33,608 nt of DNA. Origin: Paludibacteraceae bacterium (GTDB lineage: Bacteria > Bacteroidota > Bacteroidia > Bacteroidales > Paludibacteraceae). Shown here piece after piece: positions 7,833 through 16,725 of this stretch. The stretch is from positions 1 to 33,608 of the forward strand of contig JAKSNW010000019.1 of assembly GCA_024405895.1 (NCBI GenBank), given 5' to 3'. The translations under genes and the position numbers were made by a program. The notes beneath the pieces were generated by a model that saw only the letters and a list, made by a program, of their open reading frames with translations, made no database searches and was not told the DNA's origin. The stretch's first letter is position 1, and each line of letters opens with the position of its first letter.

Positions 7833-9722
7833 TTAATGCAAGATAAGCTTGCGAATGATAGCGTTTTGATTGTTGGTAAGTCTGATGATGATGGTTGACG
7901 GTCTTGTCAAGTAGTCCGGCAAAGCAACGAGTTCTTCTTCCGATGAGATAGACTGCGAAAGGAGCATCTGACCTTGAACGGAATACATCTCAAGTTGATA
8001 GCCCATAGCACCGCCTACAAGGAGCATATTCTCTTTCTGATATAGCAAGATATCAGGCTCAAGAGTTGTTTCCAGACCTGTAGGAGGCAAGAGATTCAAA
8101 GCCACGACAACAGGATCGTGGTCGGAACAGCGATACATGTCGTCAACGAAGGTTGTTGAATTCTGATACTCAAACATTGATGGTTCGTCGGCATTGATAT
8201 GGAACGGCTTGACATCCACCACTTGCGACAATAATGAGCTATTGCCGATGGCATGATCCAACAAACCGAACGAAGAATGATAGGAGTAGGAATAGGCGGT
8301 GTCGGCATTGAAGTATTGTACCAAATTGGTATAGCCAGCATTGGTGAAGGCACGAATCGGATCTTCCTGACTATAGGAATTCAAATCGCCCATGATAAGC
8401 ACGTCGTTGTCGCCATAATAGGTCTGATAGGCAGGGATATTGCTCAAAACAGAGTTGGACTCTTGAACACGGGTTCCGTTGTAACTGCCTTGACCATCAC
8501 CTTGGTCAGAATCGCTACCAGAGCCGTTTCCGCTCTTGGACTTGAAGTGATTCAAACAGAAGATGAAGGCAGCATTATTTTCCAACAAACGGAAGCCTTG
8601 AGCTTTCTTTCGGTTCTTGACTGCGGTATCGTTATAGCGCAAATTATTGATAGGAGCCACTTTATCTACGCGATAAATATAGCCGGCTTTGGTGTAGGAG
8701 CCGTTGGTGGAAGTGCCATCGTTGATGAAGGCATATTTCGCGTATCCGGCATGGGCATTCAGGGAATCGGTCAGTCGGCGAAGTGCATTCTGTCCTGTCT
8801 GAATCTCCACCAATCCAAAGATATCGGCATCGATGGCTTCAAGGGCATGCATGATTTTCTTGTGCTGACGCAAAGACTCGGTGGCATTGGCCGGTCCATA
8901 ACCTGTGCCAAAGTTGTCGGCAAGATAGTACTCCAAGTTGAAAGAGACAATCTTCAAGTTGTAGTTGCCTTGAAGATTGACAGCAACAGGACGTTCATTG
9001 CCGTAAAAGACTGGCGTTGAGGACGGATAGACAACATAGCCATGACTGGTATAGGTCAAAACGCCAGTCAGGTTATCCACTCGCGAACCAGTTCTTCGGG
9101 TTCCGTTGGCATCGGCAAAAGGAATCGGCGAAGGGTAAGTGGCTGTCGTTCCGTCCAAGACAATCTGGTCGGCATTGTTTTGAGCCACAAGGTTTTGATA
9201 GGCAACAGAACCCGGGATAGCCCCTTCCGTAGGCGCTTTCAGCATGTGGGAAGCCAAAGTGACTTCGCCATATCTCTGCCAACTGTAGTTGGAGACCACA
9301 TAAAGTGTCTGATTGAAACAGAGGGTCATTCCTTCGTAATCATCCCATGAGGAGAAATCGTCCGGAAATCTTACGTTGGTGGGCATTATCGACTTGTTGG
9401 AGTCTATAAGTTCAAGACTGTCAGCCGCCAAGACTACACGACGGTCTTCATTGACGACTTTGCCGAAGAGCCTAAACTCATCGCCTACATGAACGGATTC
9501 GGTTGATTTTGTTTTGACAAAGATTGCCGTGGAATGGTTTGTAGAATTCGGGTCAGAGAAATCCTGAACGAAGAATCCCTCCGGCAAGATGAGTGTGACG
9601 ACACCTTGTGTGGAAACGGTTTCGGTATTTGCGTTTCTGATTTGAGAGATGCGAAACTGCTGGGCAGAGAGAGCACTCCAAACTACAGAAAATAGGATGA
9701 CTGCCAGGATTCTATTTTTCAT
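7833..9722 (-). CDS. Secreted endonuclease/exonuclease/phosphatase-family protein with type IX sorting domain
   Basis: A 629-residue extracellular nuclease-like protein. The signal peptide MKNRILAVILFSVVWSALSAQ decides the start at the ATG 9722; a GTG at 9761 lies inside the terminator hairpin and is rejected. An N-terminal OB-fold-like region (about 25-200) resembles that of NucH/ExeM-type extracellular nucleases. The catalytic domain shows LVEIQ with E306, NHFKSKSG, MGDLNS with D446 and N448, LLDHAIGN, and SDHDPVVV with D534-H535-D536, the hallmarks of the DNase I-like fold. The last 80 residues (ending IIRKLILH) look like a type IX secretion C-terminal domain, with the VQGQ turn. DNA is the likely substrate, perhaps for nutrient nucleotides; the neighbouring pyrimidine genes fit but prove nothing. 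A terminator lies just upstream. Confidence 0.87.
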   Translation of the reverse strand: MKNRILAVILFSVVWSALSAQQFRISQIRNANTETVSTQGVVTLILPEGFFVQDFSDPNSTNHSTAIFVKTKSTESVHVGDEFRLFGKVVNEDRRVVLAADSLELIDSNKSIMPTNVRFPDDFSSWDDYEGMTLCFNQTLYVVSNYSWQRYGEVTLASHMLKAPTEGAIPGSVAYQNLVAQNNADQIVLDGTTATYPSPIPFADANGTRRTGSRVDNLTGVLTYTSHGYVVYPSSTPVFYGNERPVAVNLQGNYNLKIVSFNLEYYLADNFGTGYGPANATESLRQHKKIMHALEAIDADIFGLVEIQTGQNALRRLTDSLNAHAGYAKYAFINDGTSTNGSYTKAGYIYRVDKVAPINNLRYNDTAVKNRKKAQGFRLLENNAAFIFCLNHFKSKSGNGSGSDSDQGDGQGSYNGTRVQESNSVLSNIPAYQTYYGDNDVLIMGDLNSYSQEDPIRAFTNAGYTNLVQYFNADTAYSYSYHSSFGLLDHAIGNSSLLSQVVDVKPFHINADEPSMFEYQNSTTFVDDMYRCSDHDPVVVALNLLPPTGLETTLEPDILLYQKENMLLVGGAMGYQLEMYSVQGQMLLSQSISSEEELVALPDYLTRPSTIIIRLTNNQNAIIRKLILH

Positions 9723-9731
9723 TCTACTATC

Positions 9732-9776
9732 AAATAAAAAGGGAGAGACGCAGTTTTTCACATTGCGCCTCTACCC
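9732..9776 (-). terminator. Intrinsic terminator after carB
   Basis: On the minus strand GGGTAGAGGCGCA (9776-9764) pairs with TGCGTCTCTCCC (9752-9741), with one bulged T and one G-T pair and an 11-base loop, followed by TTTTTATTT. It ends only 10 bases before the nuclease start codon. No promoter is evident between hairpin and gene, so the nuclease, HD and lpxK genes may depend on read-through. Confidence 0.75.
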
Positions 9777-9809: not shown

Positions 9810-12800
9810 TTAGCGAACCTTATCTTGTTCTGAGTCAATGGTTGAAACACCGAGTGTGATTTCTTCCAAAACGTCGAGGAGCACTCTTACGGTCTCCAAT
9901 GAGGTGAACATTGAGACATTGTTCTCTACAGCACAACGACGGATTTCGAAACCGTCCTTGGTGGTATCGCTTTGGTTGATATCAATGGTGTTGATGACGT
10001 AGTTAACGTGACCCTGACGCAAAGAGGTGAAGATTTCGTTGCTGCCCTCGCTGAGTTTCTTTCTTGTACGAGTGCGGATGCCGTTGGCACGGAGGAAATC
10101 GGCAGTACCTTTAGTAGCCTCAACATTGAAACCGATATCGTAGAAACGACGGATAAGAGGCAAGGCTTTCTGTTTGTCGCAGTCGGCAATGGTTACAAGG
10201 ATAGTACCATAGTTTGCCAATGACATGCCAGAAGAACGGAGTGCCTTATAGAGTGCACGGGTCAGTTTGTCATCGTAACCGATAGCCTCACCGGTAGATT
10301 TCATCTCTGGTGAGAGATAAGCATCCATGCCTCTCAGTTTTGAGAATGAGAATGCAGGAGCCTTGACATACCAGCGTTTACGCTCTGGGTGATAGAGAGA
10401 AGTGTAGCCTTGCTCTTTCAAAGAGTGACCGAGGATGACTTGAGTTGCAATGTCAGCCAATGGAACACCGGTTGATTTGCTCAAGAATGGAACGGTACGG
10501 CTTGAACGTGGGTTAACCTCAATGACATAGACATCGTTCTTGGCATCGGCAATGAATTGGATATTGTAGAGGCCTACGATACCGATTGCCAAACCGAGAC
10601 GTTCGGTATAGTCGAGGATTTTGTCTTTAACTTCTTGTGGAACACTGAAGGTTGGATAGACACTGATAGAGTCGCCAGAGTGGATACCTGTACGTTCTAC
10701 GTGCTCCATGATGCCAGGAACGAATACTGATTCGCCATCACATACGGCATCTACCTCCAACTCCTTACCCATGATATATTTATCTACCAAAACAGGTTGG
10801 TCAACATTGACGGCAACGGCGGTTTGGAGATAGTGTTTCAAAGATTCGGTGTTGTTTACAATCTGCATGGCACGACCACCCAATACGTAACTTGGACGAA
10901 CCAAGACAGGATAGCCGATTCGCTCTGCTACTTTGATGCCGTCTGGGATATTGGTAACGGCCTCACCGGTTGGCTGAGGAATACCGAGTTTTGTCATGAT
11001 CTTCTCGAAGCTATCGCGGTTCTCTGCGTTCTCAATAGCCTGAACGTCAGTGCCGATAATCTTCACTCCAAGACGATGGAGAGGTTCTGCGAGGTTGATG
11101 GCAGTCTGACCACCGAGTGAAACAACGATACCTTCCGGCTGCTCGAGATGGAGGATATTCATCACGTCCTCAACGGTAAGAGGCTCAAAATAGAGTTTAT
11201 CGCTGGTGGTATAGTCGGTAGATACGGTCTCTGGGTTGTTGTTGATGATGATAGCTTCATAGCCGGCAGCTCGAATGCTCCAGATGGCATGAACAGTGGA
11301 ATAGTCGAACTCTACGCCCTGACCGATACGGATTGGTCCGGAACCGAGAACTACAATCTTTTTCTTATCGCTAACAACGGACTCATTCTCTCTTTCGTAG
11401 GATGAGTAGAAGTAAGGAACGTATGAGCTGAACTCGCTGGCGCAAGTGTCAATCATCTTGTAGACTGGGAAGATATTGTTCTTCTCTCTCAAACGGAAGA
11501 TTTCATGTTCGTTGGTTCCCCAAACTTGAGCGATGTATTTATCGCCAAAGCCCATCTTCTTCACTTCGCGAAGCACCTCTACATCAAAAGGTTTTTCCTT
11601 CAAAACTTTCTCTTCCTCAACGATGTTCTTGAATTTCTCAAGGAAGAAGAGGTCAATCTTGGTATTGTTGTAGATCATGCCCAAGTCCACATTCAAACGA
11701 ATGAGTTGAGCTATAGCGTAGAGACGGTCGTCGGTTGGAGTCTTGATATATTGCAAGAGGTCGTCAACGGTCCAATCGTCAAATTTCTTCAAATAGATGT
11801 GGCAAACGCCGGTCTCTAGTGAGCGAACAGCCTTCAAGAGGCTCTCTTCGATGGTGCGGCCGATAGCCATTACCTCGCCGGTAGCCTTCATCTGGGTGCC
11901 GAGGCTGTTGTTGGCATCCACGAATTTGTCGAATGGGAAGCGGGCAATCTTTGTTACCACATAGTCGAGTGCAGGTTCAAAGCTTGCAGGAGTGTTGGCG
12001 ATAGCGATTTCATCCAAAGTCATGCCGACTGCAATCTTGGCACTGACGCGAGCGATTGGGTAACCACTGGCTTTAGATGCCAAAGCAGAAGAACGGGACA
12101 CACGAGGATTGACCTCGATGAGGTAGTATTTGAATGAGAGAGGGTCGAGGGCGAACTGTACGTTACAGCCGCCTTCAATCTTCAACTCACGGATAATACG
12201 CAAGGCACTGTCACGAAGGAGTTGATACTCTTTGTTGGTCAATGTCTGAGAAGGACAAACTACGATACTGTCGCCGGTGTGAACACCAACTGGGTCGATG
12301 TTCTCCATGTTACAGATGGTGATAGCAGTATCGTTTTTATCACGCATTACCTCATACTCAATCTCCTTGAAGCCTTTGATGCTCTTCTCAACCAAGACCT
12401 GGTGAACAGGAGAGAGCGACAAGGCATTGCGCATGATTTCGCGGAATTCCTCTTCGTTGTCAGCAAAGCCACCACCAGTACCGCCGAGGGTAAAGGCTGG
12501 ACGGAGGACTACAGGATAGCCGATGTGTTCGGCAGCAGCCAGACCTTCTTCCATGTTGTTGGCAATCTCAGAAGGGAGGACAGGCTCGCCAAGACCCTGA
12601 CACAACTCTTTGAATTTCTCACGGTCTTCAGCGCGTTCGATACTTTCAAAAGAGGTACCAAGAATCTCTACATCACACTCTTTCAAAACGCCTTTCTTGG
12701 CCAACTGAACAGCAAGGTTCAAGCCGGTCTGACCGCCAAGGCTTGGGAGGATGGCATCAGGACGTTCGTAGCGGATGATTTTTGCCACATACTCCAAAGT

Positions 12801-13007
12801 AAGTGGCTCCATATACACTTTATCTGCAATATTGGTGTCAGTCATGATGGTTGCAGGGTTGGAGTTAACCAACAAAACCTTGTAACCTTCTTCACGAAGA
12901 GCCAAACAAGCCTGTGTGCCAGCATAGTCGAACTCGGCAGCCTGACCAATCACGATTGGGCCAGAGCCAATCACCATTACAGTTTTTATATCTTGTCTTT
13001 TAGGCAT
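9810..13007 (-). CDS. carB: Carbamoyl-phosphate synthase, large subunit
   Basis: CarB makes carbamoyl phosphate from ammonia supplied by CarA, bicarbonate and two ATP, feeding pyrimidine and arginine synthesis. The 1065 residues match the usual length of about 1070. The protein has two homologous ATP-grasp halves, starting with [21 protein letters not shown] and [19 protein letters not shown], each carrying the NPRxSRS/NPRSSRT substrate segments, and a C-terminal MGS-like domain where allosteric ligands bind in E. coli (from about [15 protein letters not shown]). It follows carA after 27 bases. It ends at a strong terminator. Control of the operon is probably exerted at the attenuator upstream of pyrC. 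Confidence 0.97.
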
Positions 13008-13034: not shown

Positions 13035-14126
13035 TTAACTAAAACGATTCTGACGCATCAAACTGATGAAAGTGTCGAAGAGGTAACTGCTGTCTTGTGG
13101 ACCAGGAGCACTCTCTGGGTGATATTGTACACTGAATACCATATCTTTCATGCAACGCATTCCCTCAACGGTATTGTCAAGGATATTGATGTGGGTCACT
13201 TCCAAATCGGTGTTTTTCAAAGAATCGGCATCAACAGCGAAACTGTGGTTCTGGCTGGTGATCTCCACTTTGCCAGTGAGGAGGTTCTTCACTGGGTGGT
13301 TACCGCCACGGTGACCGAATTTCAGTTTGTAGGTCTGAGCGCCATAAGCCAAGGAAATCATCTGATGACCAAGGCAGATACCGAAGATAGGAATACGGCC
13401 TCTCAGGGTTCTAACCAATTCAGCAACACAAGGAACATCTTCAGGGTTGCCCGGACCATTGGAGAGGAATAGACCGTCTGGATGGAAAGACATCACTTCT
13501 TCTGCAGTGGTGTTGTAAGGAACGACAGTCACGTTGCATCCTTTCTTGTTCAAGCTTCTGATGATGTTGTACTTGATACCGCAGTCGATAGCTACCACGT
13601 GGAAGATGTGGTTAGGAGTACGGCTGTACCAACGTTTCTTGCAGCTTACGCGACTTACCTGGTCGTGAGGCCAATCGGCTTTGCGAAGACGGGCCAAGGC
13701 TTCTTCTTTCGGAGTATCGGCATTGGTAAGCATCACGAGTTGACTGCCTTCATTGCGAATGATGCGGGTCAACATACGGGTGTCAATGCCTTCGATGCCA
13801 GGGATGTTATATTCTTCAAGCACTTCGGCCAAGGTTTTGGTGTAACGGAAGTTACTTGGAGTATCATTATACTCGCGTACAATTAATCCGCCCAGGGTTG
13901 GATACTTTGTTTCGTAGTCTTCGTCGGTAATGCCATAGTTACCAATCAACGGATAAGTCATCACAACCATCTGATCGGTGTAACTCGGATCAGACATGAT
14001 TTCCTGATAACCGACCATAGAGGTATTGAACACTACTTCGTTGATGGCTTCGCGGTCTGCACCGAATCCGTAGCCATAAAACTCAGTACCATTCTCAAGT
14101 ACGATTTTCTTTGTGTAGGGTTTCAT
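13035..14126 (-). CDS. carA: Carbamoyl-phosphate synthase, small (glutaminase) subunit
   Basis: CarA releases ammonia from glutamine for CarB. The 363 residues include the CPSase small-chain N-terminal domain (LVLENGTEFYG-like start, then FNTSMVGYQEIMSDPSY) and a class I glutamine amidotransferase domain. The nucleophile is C251 in GICLGHQ, and H336 and E338 in YHPESAPGPQ complete the triad. It lies 25 bases after pyrC and 27 bases before carB, so the three genes form one operon. The order pyrC-carA-carB puts the first three functions of pyrimidine synthesis except aspartate carbamoyltransferase together; pyrB is not in the window. Confidence 0.97.
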   Translation of the reverse strand: MKPYTKKIVLENGTEFYGYGFGADREAINEVVFNTSMVGYQEIMSDPSYTDQMVVMTYPLIGNYGITDEDYETKYPTLGGLIVREYNDTPSNFRYTKTLAEVLEEYNIPGIEGIDTRMLTRIIRNEGSQLVMLTNADTPKEEALARLRKADWPHDQVSRVSCKKRWYSRTPNHIFHVVAIDCGIKYNIIRSLNKKGCNVTVVPYNTTAEEVMSFHPDGLFLSNGPGNPEDVPCVAELVRTLRGRIPIFGICLGHQMISLAYGAQTYKLKFGHRGGNHPVKNLLTGKVEITSQNHSFAVDADSLKNTDLEVTHINILDNTVEGMRCMKDMVFSVQYHPESAPGPQDSSYLFDTFISLMRQNRFS

Positions 14127-14151: not shown

Positions 14152-15414
14152 TTAGTCTGCCGAATAAACAATCTTACCGTCAACCATTGTCATACAACAA
14201 CGGGCATGTACTTCTACGCCAATAAAAGGTGTTGCCTTACCTTTTGAGAGGAAGTTGTCGGGATTGATTTTATAGCAGGTATTCAAATCCATGAAAGCAA
14301 AATCTGCTTTGCTGCCAACGGCGATGTCCACTTTCTCGCCCAAAGCGAAGAGACGTCGTGGGTTGTGGCTCATCACTTCGACAAGTTTCTCCAGTGTCAT
14401 CTTGCCATTTTCCACAAAATAGGTGTACATCAGCGGGAAGGCTGTCTCCAAGCCAACGATGCCGAAAGCACTCTTCTCCAATCCTCTGCTCTTCTCTTCG
14501 GCAGAATGAGGAGCATGGTCGGTAGCAATGACCTCGATGGTGCCGTCCATTACGCCTTCTATCAATGCAGACTTGTCGTCGTTGGAACGAACAGGCGGAT
14601 TCATCTTGAAGCGTCCTTCTTCCTGAAGGTCGGCGTCTGTCAGGAGAAGGTAGTGAGGAGCTGTTTCACAAGACACTGGCAATCCAAGTTTCTTGGCGTT
14701 GCGGATGATTTCGACGCTCTCTTTGGTGGAGATATGGCAGACATGATATTGGCAGCCAGTCTCCTTGACCAAATCTACATCACGAGCAATCTGCTCCCAT
14801 TCGCTTTGACTGCAGATTCCACGGTGACCATGTTGGGCAGCATAATCACCCAGATGGATATAGCCGTTATGCAACAAAGAGTTGACTTCGCAATGGGCTG
14901 CGATACGACTGCCAAGTGCCTTTACTTTCAGCATGGCATCGTGCATCATATTGTCTTTCTGAACGCCATGTCCGTCATCGCTGAAAGCGCAGACATAAGG
15001 ATTCATATCCTCGATGTCGGCCATCTCGGCACCCAACTGTCCTTTGGTGATACAGCCGTAAGGGAAGACTTTGATTTGGGCATCTCTTTCGATGATGTCA
15101 CGTTGAATTTTCAAGGTCTCCAAGGAATCAGGTGTTGGCTTGAGGTTAGGCATCGTGCAAACGGCAGTATATCCGGCAGAGGCTGCAGCCTTGGTTCCGG
15201 TGGCGATGGTTTCTTTGTATTCAAAGCCTGGTTCACGGAAATGAACATGCACATCTACCAAGCCAGGGACAACGGTCCTGCCTTTGGCATCTACGACTTC
15301 AGCCGCGGAATCTTCCAATGTAGGAGACACGGCTTTGACCACCCCATCTTCAACGAGAATTCGGGTAGTTTCGGTAGCGTTGTAAGGAACTGCGTTTATA
15401 ATAAGTTGCTTCAT
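14152..15414 (-). CDS. pyrC: Dihydroorotase
   Basis: Dihydroorotase closes carbamoyl aspartate to dihydroorotate, the third step of pyrimidine synthesis. The 420 residues show the amidohydrolase metal site: DVHVHFREPG with H56 and H58, and ATDHAPHS with D299. The length and the DVHVHFREPG-EYKETIATGT run place it in the type I (Bacillus-like) class rather than the shorter E. coli PyrC type. No second, inactive copy is seen, and the metal residues are intact, so it should be active. It is the first gene of the pyrC-carA-carB operon. A terminator hairpin 15 bases ahead of its ATG, preceded by a leader peptide, indicates control by attenuation. Confidence 0.95.
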   Translation of the reverse strand: MKQLIINAVPYNATETTRILVEDGVVKAVSPTLEDSAAEVVDAKGRTVVPGLVDVHVHFREPGFEYKETIATGTKAAASAGYTAVCTMPNLKPTPDSLETLKIQRDIIERDAQIKVFPYGCITKGQLGAEMADIEDMNPYVCAFSDDGHGVQKDNMMHDAMLKVKALGSRIAAHCEVNSLLHNGYIHLGDYAAQHGHRGICSQSEWEQIARDVDLVKETGCQYHVCHISTKESVEIIRNAKKLGLPVSCETAPHYLLLTDADLQEEGRFKMNPPVRSNDDKSALIEGVMDGTIEVIATDHAPHSAEEKSRGLEKSAFGIVGLETAFPLMYTYFVENGKMTLEKLVEVMSHNPRRLFALGEKVDIAVGSKADFAFMDLNTCYKINPDNFLSKGKATPFIGVEVHARCCMTMVDGKIVYSAD

Positions 15415-15428
15415 AGTATTGTCAAACC

Positions 15429-15462
15429 AAAAAAAAGAGCAACCGAATAAAGACGGTTACTC
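15429..15462 (-). terminator. Leader attenuator of pyrC-carA-carB
   Basis: On the minus strand GAGTAACCG (15462-15454) pairs with CGGTTGCTC (15445-15437) over nine bases with one G-T type pair and an eight-base loop, followed by eight T (15436-15429). It lies after the pyrC promoter and ends 15 bases before the pyrC start codon, so it can only act as an attenuator. The stop codon of the leader peptide is eight bases ahead of the hairpin. Confidence 0.8.
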
Positions 15463-15470
15463 TTAATATT

Positions 15471-15566
15471 TCAGAAATGGGAAAAGAAAGGAGAACTACT
15501 GGAAGACTGGTCCCAGCCGTGAAGTTGATTTTGTCTAACAACCTGTTTTCGATTTCTTTTCAACAT
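15471..15566 (-). CDS. Putative 31-residue leader peptide of the pyrC operon
   Basis: An ATG at 15566 opens 31 codons ending in TGA at 15473-15471. The peptide begins MLKRNRKQVVRQ and ends SSSSSPFFSHF. The last codons, TCT CCT TTC TTT TCC CAT TTC, are a pyrimidine-rich run on the RNA, as in the pyrBI leader of E. coli, where slow transcription through U-rich RNA at low UTP lets the following ribosome catch up and block the terminator. The ATG stands about 20 bases after the predicted transcription start and the stop eight bases before the attenuator hairpin. No family is recognised, and the basis is position and composition only. Confidence 0.55.
   Translation of the reverse strand: MLKRNRKQVVRQNQLHGWDQSSSSSPFFSHF
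15499..15516 (-). promoter_or_regulatory. Candidate RNA polymerase pause hairpin
   Basis: On the minus strand CTGGGA (15516-15511) pairs with TTCCAG (15504-15499), six bases with one G-T pair and a six-base loop. It lies inside the leader peptide, directly before the pyrimidine-rich tract, the position of the pause hairpin in pyrBI-type leaders. A weaker alternative pairing is possible between GGTTGTTA (15543-15536) and the 5' arm of the attenuator. Confidence 0.4.
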
Positions 15567-15591
15567 TGTGTCTGTGCTTGTATTAACATTG

Positions 15592-15599
15592 CAAAGATA
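15592..15599 (-). promoter_or_regulatory. -7 element of the pyrC operon promoter
   Basis: TATCTTTG on the minus strand (15599-15592), followed by C, is a perfect TAnnTTTG. The bases 19-20 further upstream do not give TTTG. The predicted start near 15585 gives a leader of about 170 bases that holds the leader peptide and attenuator. It lies between the queA stop and the leader. Confidence 0.65.
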
Positions 15600-15663
15600 C
15601 TACTTTTATCTTATATGTTGACCATATTTCGGCAAAAAAGTTCTCCACAATGTAGAATAAATT

Positions 15664-16725
15664 TTAGTCGTTCAAGATAAGCATTGCGTCGCCGTATGCA
15701 CCAAAGCGATAGCCCTCTTTTACAGCCATATTGTAAATCTCCATCACCTTTTCGTAGCCGCCAAATGAAGCCACAATCATCAGCATGGTGGATTGTGAGA
15801 GGTGGAAGTTTGTCAACAGGCAGTTGGCAGTTGAGAACTGATAAGGTGGGAAGATGAATTTATAAGTCCAGCCGTCGTAAGGGCGGATGATGCCATCGGC
15901 AGTTGAAGCTGTCTCGAGGGCACGCAAAGTAGATGTACCAACAGCACAGATCTTGCGACCTTCCGCATAGCGTTCGTTGAACAAGTTAGCAGTTGACTCT
16001 GGCACTTCCATTTGTTCGGAATCCATCTTGTATTTTGTCAGGTCTTCTACATCCACATCCTTAAACATGGTCAAACTGCAATAAAGAGTCAAAGCTGCAA
16101 CATCAATGCCTTTGATCTCCATCAGTTTCAGCAACTCGCGGCTAAAGTGCAATCCGGCAGCAGGAGCAACCACAGCACCTTCCTTTTGGGCATAGATTGT
16201 CTGATAACGTTCTGTATCATCAGCATCTGAGCCATTTTCACGATAGATATAATAAGGAAGTGGAGTATGTCCCAGTTTCATCAGTTCGTCCTTAAACTCA
16301 TCGTGTTCTCCGTCATAAAGGAAACGGATGGTACGACCGCGAGAGGTTGTATTGTCGATAACCTCAGCAACCATTGAGTTGTCGTCGCCGAAATACAATT
16401 TGTTGCCTACGCGAATTTTTCTTGCAGGTTCCACCAAGACATCCCACAAGCGTTGTTGCTGGGTCAATTCTCTCAACAAGGTCACTTCGATCTTAGCATT
16501 TGTTTTCTCCTTGTTGCCATAAAGCATGGCTGGGAATACCTTGGCATCGTTTGTTACGAGAAGGTCTTTCTCATCAAAATACTCCAAAATATTCAAGAAT
16601 GTGCGATGCTCTACTTGGCCGCTTTTCTTATGGAAAACCAGCAAACGACTTTCATCACGATTTTCTACAGGGCGCTGAGCTATTTGCGCCTCTGGCAGTT
16701 TAAACTTAAACTGTGATAACTTCAT
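15664..16725 (-). CDS. queA: S-adenosylmethionine:tRNA ribosyltransferase-isomerase
   Basis: QueA moves the ribosyl part of S-adenosylmethionine onto preQ1 in the wobble position of GUN-anticodon tRNAs, making epoxyqueuosine. The 353 residues show MKLSQFKFKLPEAQIAQRP at the start, LGHTPLPYYIYR, APAAGLHFS, VGTSTLRALE and LLTNFHLSQSTMLMIVASF, all hallmarks of the family. The start ATG at 16725 begins with the family's typical N-terminus, so it is secure. It is the last gene of the ftsX-DUF3098-uppP-truB-queA run and follows truB by 21 bases. No clear terminator follows; the pyrC promoter lies about 65 bases on. Confidence 0.96.
   Translation of the reverse strand: MKLSQFKFKLPEAQIAQRPVENRDESRLLVFHKKSGQVEHRTFLNILEYFDEKDLLVTNDAKVFPAMLYGNKEKTNAKIEVTLLRELTQQQRLWDVLVEPARKIRVGNKLYFGDDNSMVAEVIDNTTSRGRTIRFLYDGEHDEFKDELMKLGHTPLPYYIYRENGSDADDTERYQTIYAQKEGAVVAPAAGLHFSRELLKLMEIKGIDVAALTLYCSLTMFKDVDVEDLTKYKMDSEQMEVPESTANLFNERYAEGRKICAVGTSTLRALETASTADGIIRPYDGWTYKFIFPPYQFSTANCLLTNFHLSQSTMLMIVASFGGYEKVMEIYNMAVKEGYRFGAYGDAMLILND

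Follow-up and report, generated by a model that had tools for sequence, protein, structure and literature searches.

In Escherichia coli, attenuation at the pyrBI operon does not need an antiterminator, and at pyrE U-rich RNA and a trailing ribosome together prevent the terminator from forming, the translated frame there being the upstream gene rph. In Firmicutes, attenuation by PyrR is common, with a terminator placed ahead of the pyr genes. How near a ribosome has to be to a terminator has been described for E. coli, where placing a terminator within a few bp downstream of a stop codon abolishes almost all of its activity, which is regained at a distance of about 30 bp (PMC4824070), and for the E. 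coli pyrL leader tight coupling is said to be necessary to prevent termination (PMC5021804).

For Bacteroidota, we found no report of a pyrimidine attenuator in the openly licensed full-text literature, in agreement with the first-pass annotation of the DNA studied here, which knew of no attenuator of this kind in Bacteroidales. A transcriptome study of Bacteroides thetaiotaomicron describes leader-like small open reading frames in 5' untranslated regions, the words "pyrB" and "pyrimidine" being absent from its main text (PMC7366714). Here, we describe a leader ahead of pyrC in the window, which is the whole stretch of 33,608 nucleotides from a Paludibacteraceae bacterium that was analysed. 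The leader is likely to be a translation-coupled transcription attenuator, most likely one that senses UTP and works as the E. coli pyrBI leader does.

The leader in the window

The leader is situated between queA (15664 to 16725) and pyrC on the minus strand, and its parts are listed in Table 1. The peptide encoded by the leader frame ends in ...SSSSSPFFSHF*, and its TGA lies 8 nt upstream of the 9-bp core of the hairpin, a distance seen in the window's genus. The -7 element, the 31-codon frame, the pyrimidine-rich run, the stop eight bases before a nine-base hairpin, and the eight T had all been pointed out in the first-pass annotation and are confirmed here. The arrangement of the eight T followed by the pyrC ATG stands as well, the distance between them being 14 nt and not the 15 nt given there. 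Further on, 25 nt separate pyrC from carA, and 27 nt separate carA from carB.

Table 1. Predicted parts of the leader and the genes downstream of it, in positions of the window
Feature	Positions	Strand	Basis or remark
-7 promoter element TATCTTTG	15592..15599	minus	Bacteroidota TAnnTTTG pattern
Leader reading frame, 31 codons + TGA, peptide MLKRNRKQVVRQNQLHGWDQSSSSSPFFSHF	15471..15566	minus	ATG start
Uridine-rich tract, TCT CCT TTC TTT TCC CAT TTC	15474..15494	minus	final seven leader codons
Terminator hairpin, 11-bp stem	15435..15464	minus	folding, covariation, covariance-model match
9-bp core of the hairpin, GAGTAACCG/CGGTTGCTC	15462-15454 / 15445-15437	minus	
Eight-T run, presumed termination site	15429..15436	minus	directly 3' of 9-bp core
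pyrC, dihydroorotase, 420 aa	14152..15414	minus	TIGR00857, E 5e-120
carA, carbamoyl-phosphate synthase small subunit	13035..14126	minus	TIGR01368, E 6e-145
carB, carbamoyl-phosphate synthase large subunit	9810..13007	minus	NF003671, 1522 bits

The stem is the longest (11 pairs) among the seven terminator-like sites between positions 9700 and 17600, a region for which shuffling predicts 7.0 +/- 2.6 sites of this kind, whatever their quality, and the count of sites alone is therefore uninformative. It is the conservation in relatives, described below, that places the window leader above chance. The RNA from 15590 to 15429 folds with a z-score of -3.5. The window has no match to an Rfam family at the gathering threshold, no tRNA genes were found in it, and the plasmid search gave no match.

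Two neighbouring features are recorded for completeness. Antisense to pyrC, an open frame of 361 aa extends into the terminator (14365 to 15450, plus strand), an overlap that is probably mechanical, and a gene for an extracellular nuclease of the ExeM/NucH family lies 3' of carB on the same strand (7833 to 9761), a possible nucleotide-scavenging neighbour.

Distribution among Bacteroidales

Altogether 92 genomes from two Bacteroidales families, 14 from the window's family (f1) and 78 from family f113, have a leader of the same build ahead of pyrC or, in a single case, ahead of carA. The statistics given below use 91 of these leaders, leaving aside that of genome G749, which was added afterwards by the covariance model.

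On the DNA level the leader is recognisable in a sister species (G001; 74% over positions 56 to 237), and its hairpin region in two further genomes (G017 and G085). A DNA search of 300 genomes of the family with the leader matched 50 of them somewhere, mostly in the promoter part. A PyrC match of some kind is found in 194 of these 300 genomes, among them 20 genomes from six genera (g1, g12, g15, g17, g20, and g25) with the close PyrC type and a further 36 of genus g21. Fourteen of the 20 carry a leader, counted as a frame with a T-rich end and a terminator, 13 of them at pyrC and one (G085) at carA. The other six comprise five genomes without a leader at the places examined (G015, G107, G048, G068, and G099) and one whose pyrC is truncated by the contig end (G096). 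For genus g21, 14 of the 36 genomes were scanned over the 500 nt upstream of the PyrC match, not of the start codon; 13 are without a terminator there, and one has an unrelated terminator.

In the order as a whole, PyrC at E <= 1e-80 is found in four of 393 genomes, the window's own and three in family f113. Among 150 f113 genomes searched, 80 have this PyrC, all of them within two of the 22 genera, and 77 of the 80 have a terminator of the same build ahead of pyrC (70 in a stricter first pass; G830 was dropped from the count as a weak chance hairpin). The leader of G749, found through the covariance model and then read, brings the total for this family to 78 of 80. We take one of the f113 genera, g255, for Alistipes, its leader being identical to that of an Alistipes sp. 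CHKCI003 contig.

In G085, the attenuator stands at carA (locus L123, 1128 to 1027, minus strand) with none at its pyrC, a reshuffling of control element and operon.

A leader frame that ends at the terminator

An ATG frame ending between 14 nt before the stem and the end of the hairpin is present in 86 of the 91 leaders, with a length of 26 to 49 codons (median, 35), and the remaining five have no frame inside these limits. Removing 15 redundant leaders leaves 76, which were used for the frame shuffle as well as for the folding, antiterminator, and 40-nt-window tests; 71 of these have such a frame, against 12.7 +/- 3.1 expected when the sequence from the box to the hairpin is shuffled. In all 86 framed leaders a TAnnTTTG box begins 15 to 56 nt upstream of the leader ATG, a count on which it bears that the script favoured ATGs having such a box.

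In 48 of the 86 framed leaders the stop codon begins at the stem start or further in, in 14 it begins 1 to 2 nt short of it, and in the remaining 24 it does so 4 to 10 nt short of it, the distances to the stem start ranging from -10 to +19. Typical endings are ..KE* in GGAGTAAC for genus g15 and ..LLG* in TAGGGTAAC for Alistipes. The order of parts, which the first-pass annotation had likened to the pyrBI leader, holds in its sequence predictions for the 76 leaders or the subsets tested, with a different position of the stop codon, which overlaps the stem or lies within the hairpin in 62 of the 86. Judged by sequence, 86 of the 91 leaders have a frame whose stop would be within a ribosome's reach of the terminator, as a translated leader should.

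The leader peptides show no conservation between genera. Changes in 13 independent pairs of related leaders fall on the three codon positions 49, 52, and 69 times (p 0.13), 34 of the 123 changed codons are synonymous against an expected fraction of 0.216, and length differences are divisible by 3 in 12 of 44 cases inside the frame and in three of 35 outside it, in alignments too noisy for these last counts to be used. Since the codon-position signal is weak, we limit the claim of coding to the openness of the frame, and this is also how far the coding signal suggested as a check in the first-pass annotation goes. A frame of suitable length is thus kept open while the peptide drifts.

A frame that terminates at a hairpin would also be expected of a nascent-peptide arrest leader of the tnaC or erm kind, in which the peptide itself senses a metabolite. 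Three near-identical leaders of genus g15 differ mostly synonymously by eye (four of six changed codons in the counted pair), as such a leader might; a common peptide motif between genera is not seen, and we regard peptide arrest as very improbable.

The U-rich tract

Towards the hairpin, the T fraction of the 76 leaders rises from 0.22 at -100 to -80 to 0.57 at -15 to -8, and the C fraction drops to 0.10 at -15 to -8 and then to 0.06, the composition of the base adjoining the stem being biased by how the stems were drawn. The last 15 nt before the hairpin contain T at 0.56 in the 91 leaders and at 0.27 in 37 other terminators of these loci that served as controls (p 1.8e-14). The script that picked the controls was stricter than the one used for the leaders, and the set includes at least four terminators of other-type pyrB leaders. 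From -15 to 0, these controls are A-rich (0.42 to 0.45) with T at 0.25 to 0.28. The U tract directly abuts the hairpin, and it is weak in some members (G749, G781, and G790). In leaders of both families, G is enriched (0.33) at -45 to -35 before the hairpin, which may contribute to a pause signal for the polymerase.

The enrichment extends to synonymous choices. In the 29 of 38 leaders for which the script located the pyrC frame (nine were lost), the tract codons contain 365 T, where the synonymous choices made in pyrC of the respective genome would predict 269.7 (z 14.4). A smaller synonymous excess of T in the earlier leader codons (z 5.0) means that it is not restricted to the tract. The Phe codons TTT and TTC occur in a ratio of 33:10 in the tract, 14:22 in the earlier codons, and 201:220 in pyrC. 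No amino acid is common to the last 12 codons of all 86 leaders, the commonest being Ser (0.84), Phe (0.81), Val (0.73), and Leu (0.62). Because the excess of T is synonymous and no amino acid is universal, these sequences indicate that what is selected is the U content of the RNA rather than any residue, and that the U-rich tract between leader start and terminator is selected as RNA.

The same data bear on classical amino-acid attenuation, where a ribosome stalling at scarce codons would set an antiterminator/terminator switch. A leader frame and a terminator ahead of a biosynthetic operon fit this scheme, as does the frequency of Phe and Ser at the leader end, and leader-peptide attenuation has been proposed for amino-acid operons of Flavobacterium (PMC9723704). 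The last 12 codons of the 86 leaders share no universal residue, however, the excess lies at synonymous sites, an antiterminator signal is absent (see below), and pyrC has no amino-acid product, so that amino-acid control seems extremely improbable.

The terminator and other RNA structure

The hairpins have a mean predicted energy of -15.1 kcal/mol, and the 91 leaders have 75 different pairs of arms. In an alignment of 29 of the 91 leaders, selected for one hairpin type, G(A/G)GTA(A/G)C, 98.4% of the cells pair, and both partners have changed in five of the 11 pairs. The covariation score of 0.381 for these 29 leaders compares with 0.235 +/- 0.018 for shuffled alignments, none of 500 reaching it, and with at most 0.137 when the alignment is slid. 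The pairing of the predicted intrinsic terminator before the first structural gene is conserved. The comparison of leaders that the first-pass annotation proposed for Prevotella and Bacteroides has, in the genomes used here, borne out the frame, the enriched T tract, and, in the 29 leaders aligned, hairpin arms that covary. The covariance model matches the window leader at 15491 to 15429 with an E value of 2.5e-6, which is not independent, the window leader being among the 29 used to build it.

Pairing of the terminator's 5' arm with upstream RNA, as expected for a competing antiterminator, is not above shuffled sequence (mean z -0.58, one of 76 leaders above z 2), as would suit a switch that needs none; the alternative RNA pairing that the first-pass annotation had named as a possible governor of the hairpin finds no support in these 76 leaders. 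Taken whole, the leader frames have slightly more stable folds than their dinucleotide-shuffled versions (mean z -0.58, eight of 76 below -2), and in eight 40-nt windows along the 76 leaders the mean fold z lies between -0.26 and 0.31, without a conserved pause hairpin. The possible pause hairpin that had been noticed inside the frame of the window does exist (15517 to 15498), but it has no counterpart in the other leaders, and we rejected it as a conserved part.

The hairpin might instead be controlled by PyrR or another RNA-binding protein, a reading that the first-pass annotation had also allowed for and to which the resemblance of this PyrC type to that of Firmicutes lends some weight. PyrR (NF003549) is above its curated cut-off in none of 32 genomes, the window's assembly being 78% complete, and in six of 14 controls. 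The lack of an Rfam match in the window and the highly variable hairpin sequence also speak against a protein-binding element, leaving this reading improbable.

The covariance model, R1, found 29 places in 27 of 54 genomes, 26 of them being the pyrC leader (carA in G085). The remaining three (G085:C221, G044:C44, and G131:C49) are weak, with E values of 0.003 to 0.007, and were treated as chance. R1 recognises one hairpin type only and missed known leaders of other types as well as that of G044, and further attenuators of different sequence may lie beyond its reach.

These results can be set against a more general attenuator of translation status, in which readthrough would track the distance between ribosome and polymerase as it varies with growth rate, amino acids, or initiation, and the U tract would be unstructured RNA or a pause unspecific for UTP. 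That the frame and the stop position are the strongest constraints, that the peptides are not conserved, and that the tract is without structure would all suit such a device. Yet it is T, not C or A, that is selected synonymously, and a plain lack of structure would not need T; moreover, the matches of R1, within the one hairpin type that it sees, are the leader of pyrC or carA in 26 of the 54 genomes, with only the three weak places elsewhere. We consider a general sensor of translation status unlikely.

Proposed mechanism

We conclude that the mechanism is likely of the pyrBI kind because the leader has a reading frame, U-rich RNA, a terminator within ribosome reach, and no antiterminator signal. 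Sequence-level support covers the frame, the tract, the terminator, the spacing, the conservation, the selection on U, and the absence of an antiterminator. RNA polymerase would initiate shortly upstream of the leader frame of 26 to 49 codons, and a ribosome would begin to translate it. With UTP scarce, the polymerase would be slowed in the U-rich tract before the terminator, and the ribosome would catch up and come to its stop codon, which lies at the 5' arm of the terminator or within it. Covered by the ribosome, this arm could not form the hairpin, and pyrC, with carA and carB, would be transcribed. With ample UTP, the polymerase would clear the tract ahead of the ribosome, the hairpin would form, and transcription would terminate. 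The direction of the response is thus most likely that the operon is switched on at low UTP.

A pyrBI-like switch requires the first ribosome to be close behind the polymerase, and the attenuator would therefore offer a small, naturally occurring test of how transcription and translation are coupled in one of the dominant phyla of the gut. In Bacillus subtilis, the polymerase outruns the ribosome, according to a study in whose main text the string "Bacteroid" is absent (PMC13323073).

Operon context and origin

The same head leads operons of different content. In G012, it precedes pyrC-carB-pyrK-pyrD-pyrF-(pyrE, by eye)-pyrB, which is nearly the whole UMP pathway, in G591 pyrF and pyrB lie downstream of pyrC, and the cluster in the window holds only pyrC, carA, and carB together. 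The window's assembly, which is 78% complete, yielded no pyrB. Most other genera of family f1 have a PyrC that is merely about 30% identical, and the closest PyrC proteins outside the family, among the matches listed, are from Firmicutes mixed with Bacteroidales metagenome-assembled genomes. The pyr operon with this PyrC type has probably spread horizontally, and the attenuator would mark an operon that was probably acquired in this way and had its control rebuilt.

Upstream of pyrB, 23 of 25 stretches of 300 nt from genomes with the close PyrC are without a terminator. The terminator match in G012 falls within the preceding frame, and in G017 (L208) a short terminator-like hairpin AAGTAGAC/GTCTACTT with a T run stands 77 nt before pyrB, after a pyrE-like frame. 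Genera with a Bacteroides-type pyrB have a different leader, with a frame after a -7 box and terminator arms such as AAACCAATATAA/ATATTGGTTT, the stop codon being inside the 5' arm of the hairpin in some. The script found a terminator at nine of 18 such loci, and seven of the nine have this arm build (L177, L179, L181, L183, L184, L187, and L189, being the pyrB loci of G003, G031, G018, G002, G023, G004, and G027), L180 having been assigned by eye. T is not raised before the hairpin of these leaders (mean 0.28 over nine). A second, sequence-unrelated leader at the Bacteroides-type pyrB would mean that pyrimidine control by a leader frame evolved more than once in the order.

Comparison with known systems

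The leaders described here resemble the E. coli pyrBI leader of Turnbough and colleagues in preceding a pyrimidine operon, in a U-rich stretch before the terminator, in the overlap of ribosome and terminator that they would allow, in frame length (44 aa in pyrL, a median of 35 codons here), and in having no need of an antiterminator. They differ in that the pyrBI frame runs through and beyond the terminator, whereas here the stop codon overlaps or lies within the hairpin in 62 of the 86 leaders and 4 to 10 nt before it in 24, in that the U tract immediately adjoins the hairpin, and in that the first gene is pyrC (carA once), in another phylum. The E. coli pyrE attenuator shares the proposed principle, its translated frame being an upstream gene and not, as here, a dedicated leader. 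The PyrR attenuators of Firmicutes share the terminator ahead of pyr genes, unlike the present leaders, for which no PyrR is above the cut-off in 32 genomes and no antiterminator signal is seen.

New here would be a pyrBI-like working in another phylum, the stop-at-stem geometry, and the different first gene. More tentatively, and with somewhat more doubt than confidence, we suggest that Bacteroidota evolved UTP sensing by a trailing ribosome independently, fitting it to a Firmicutes-like pyr operon without PyrR and keeping it in two families, including Alistipes, with the peptide drifting and the frame, the U content, and the stop-at-hairpin geometry being held. If this is true, it requires the ribosomes of Bacteroidota to stay close behind RNA polymerase.
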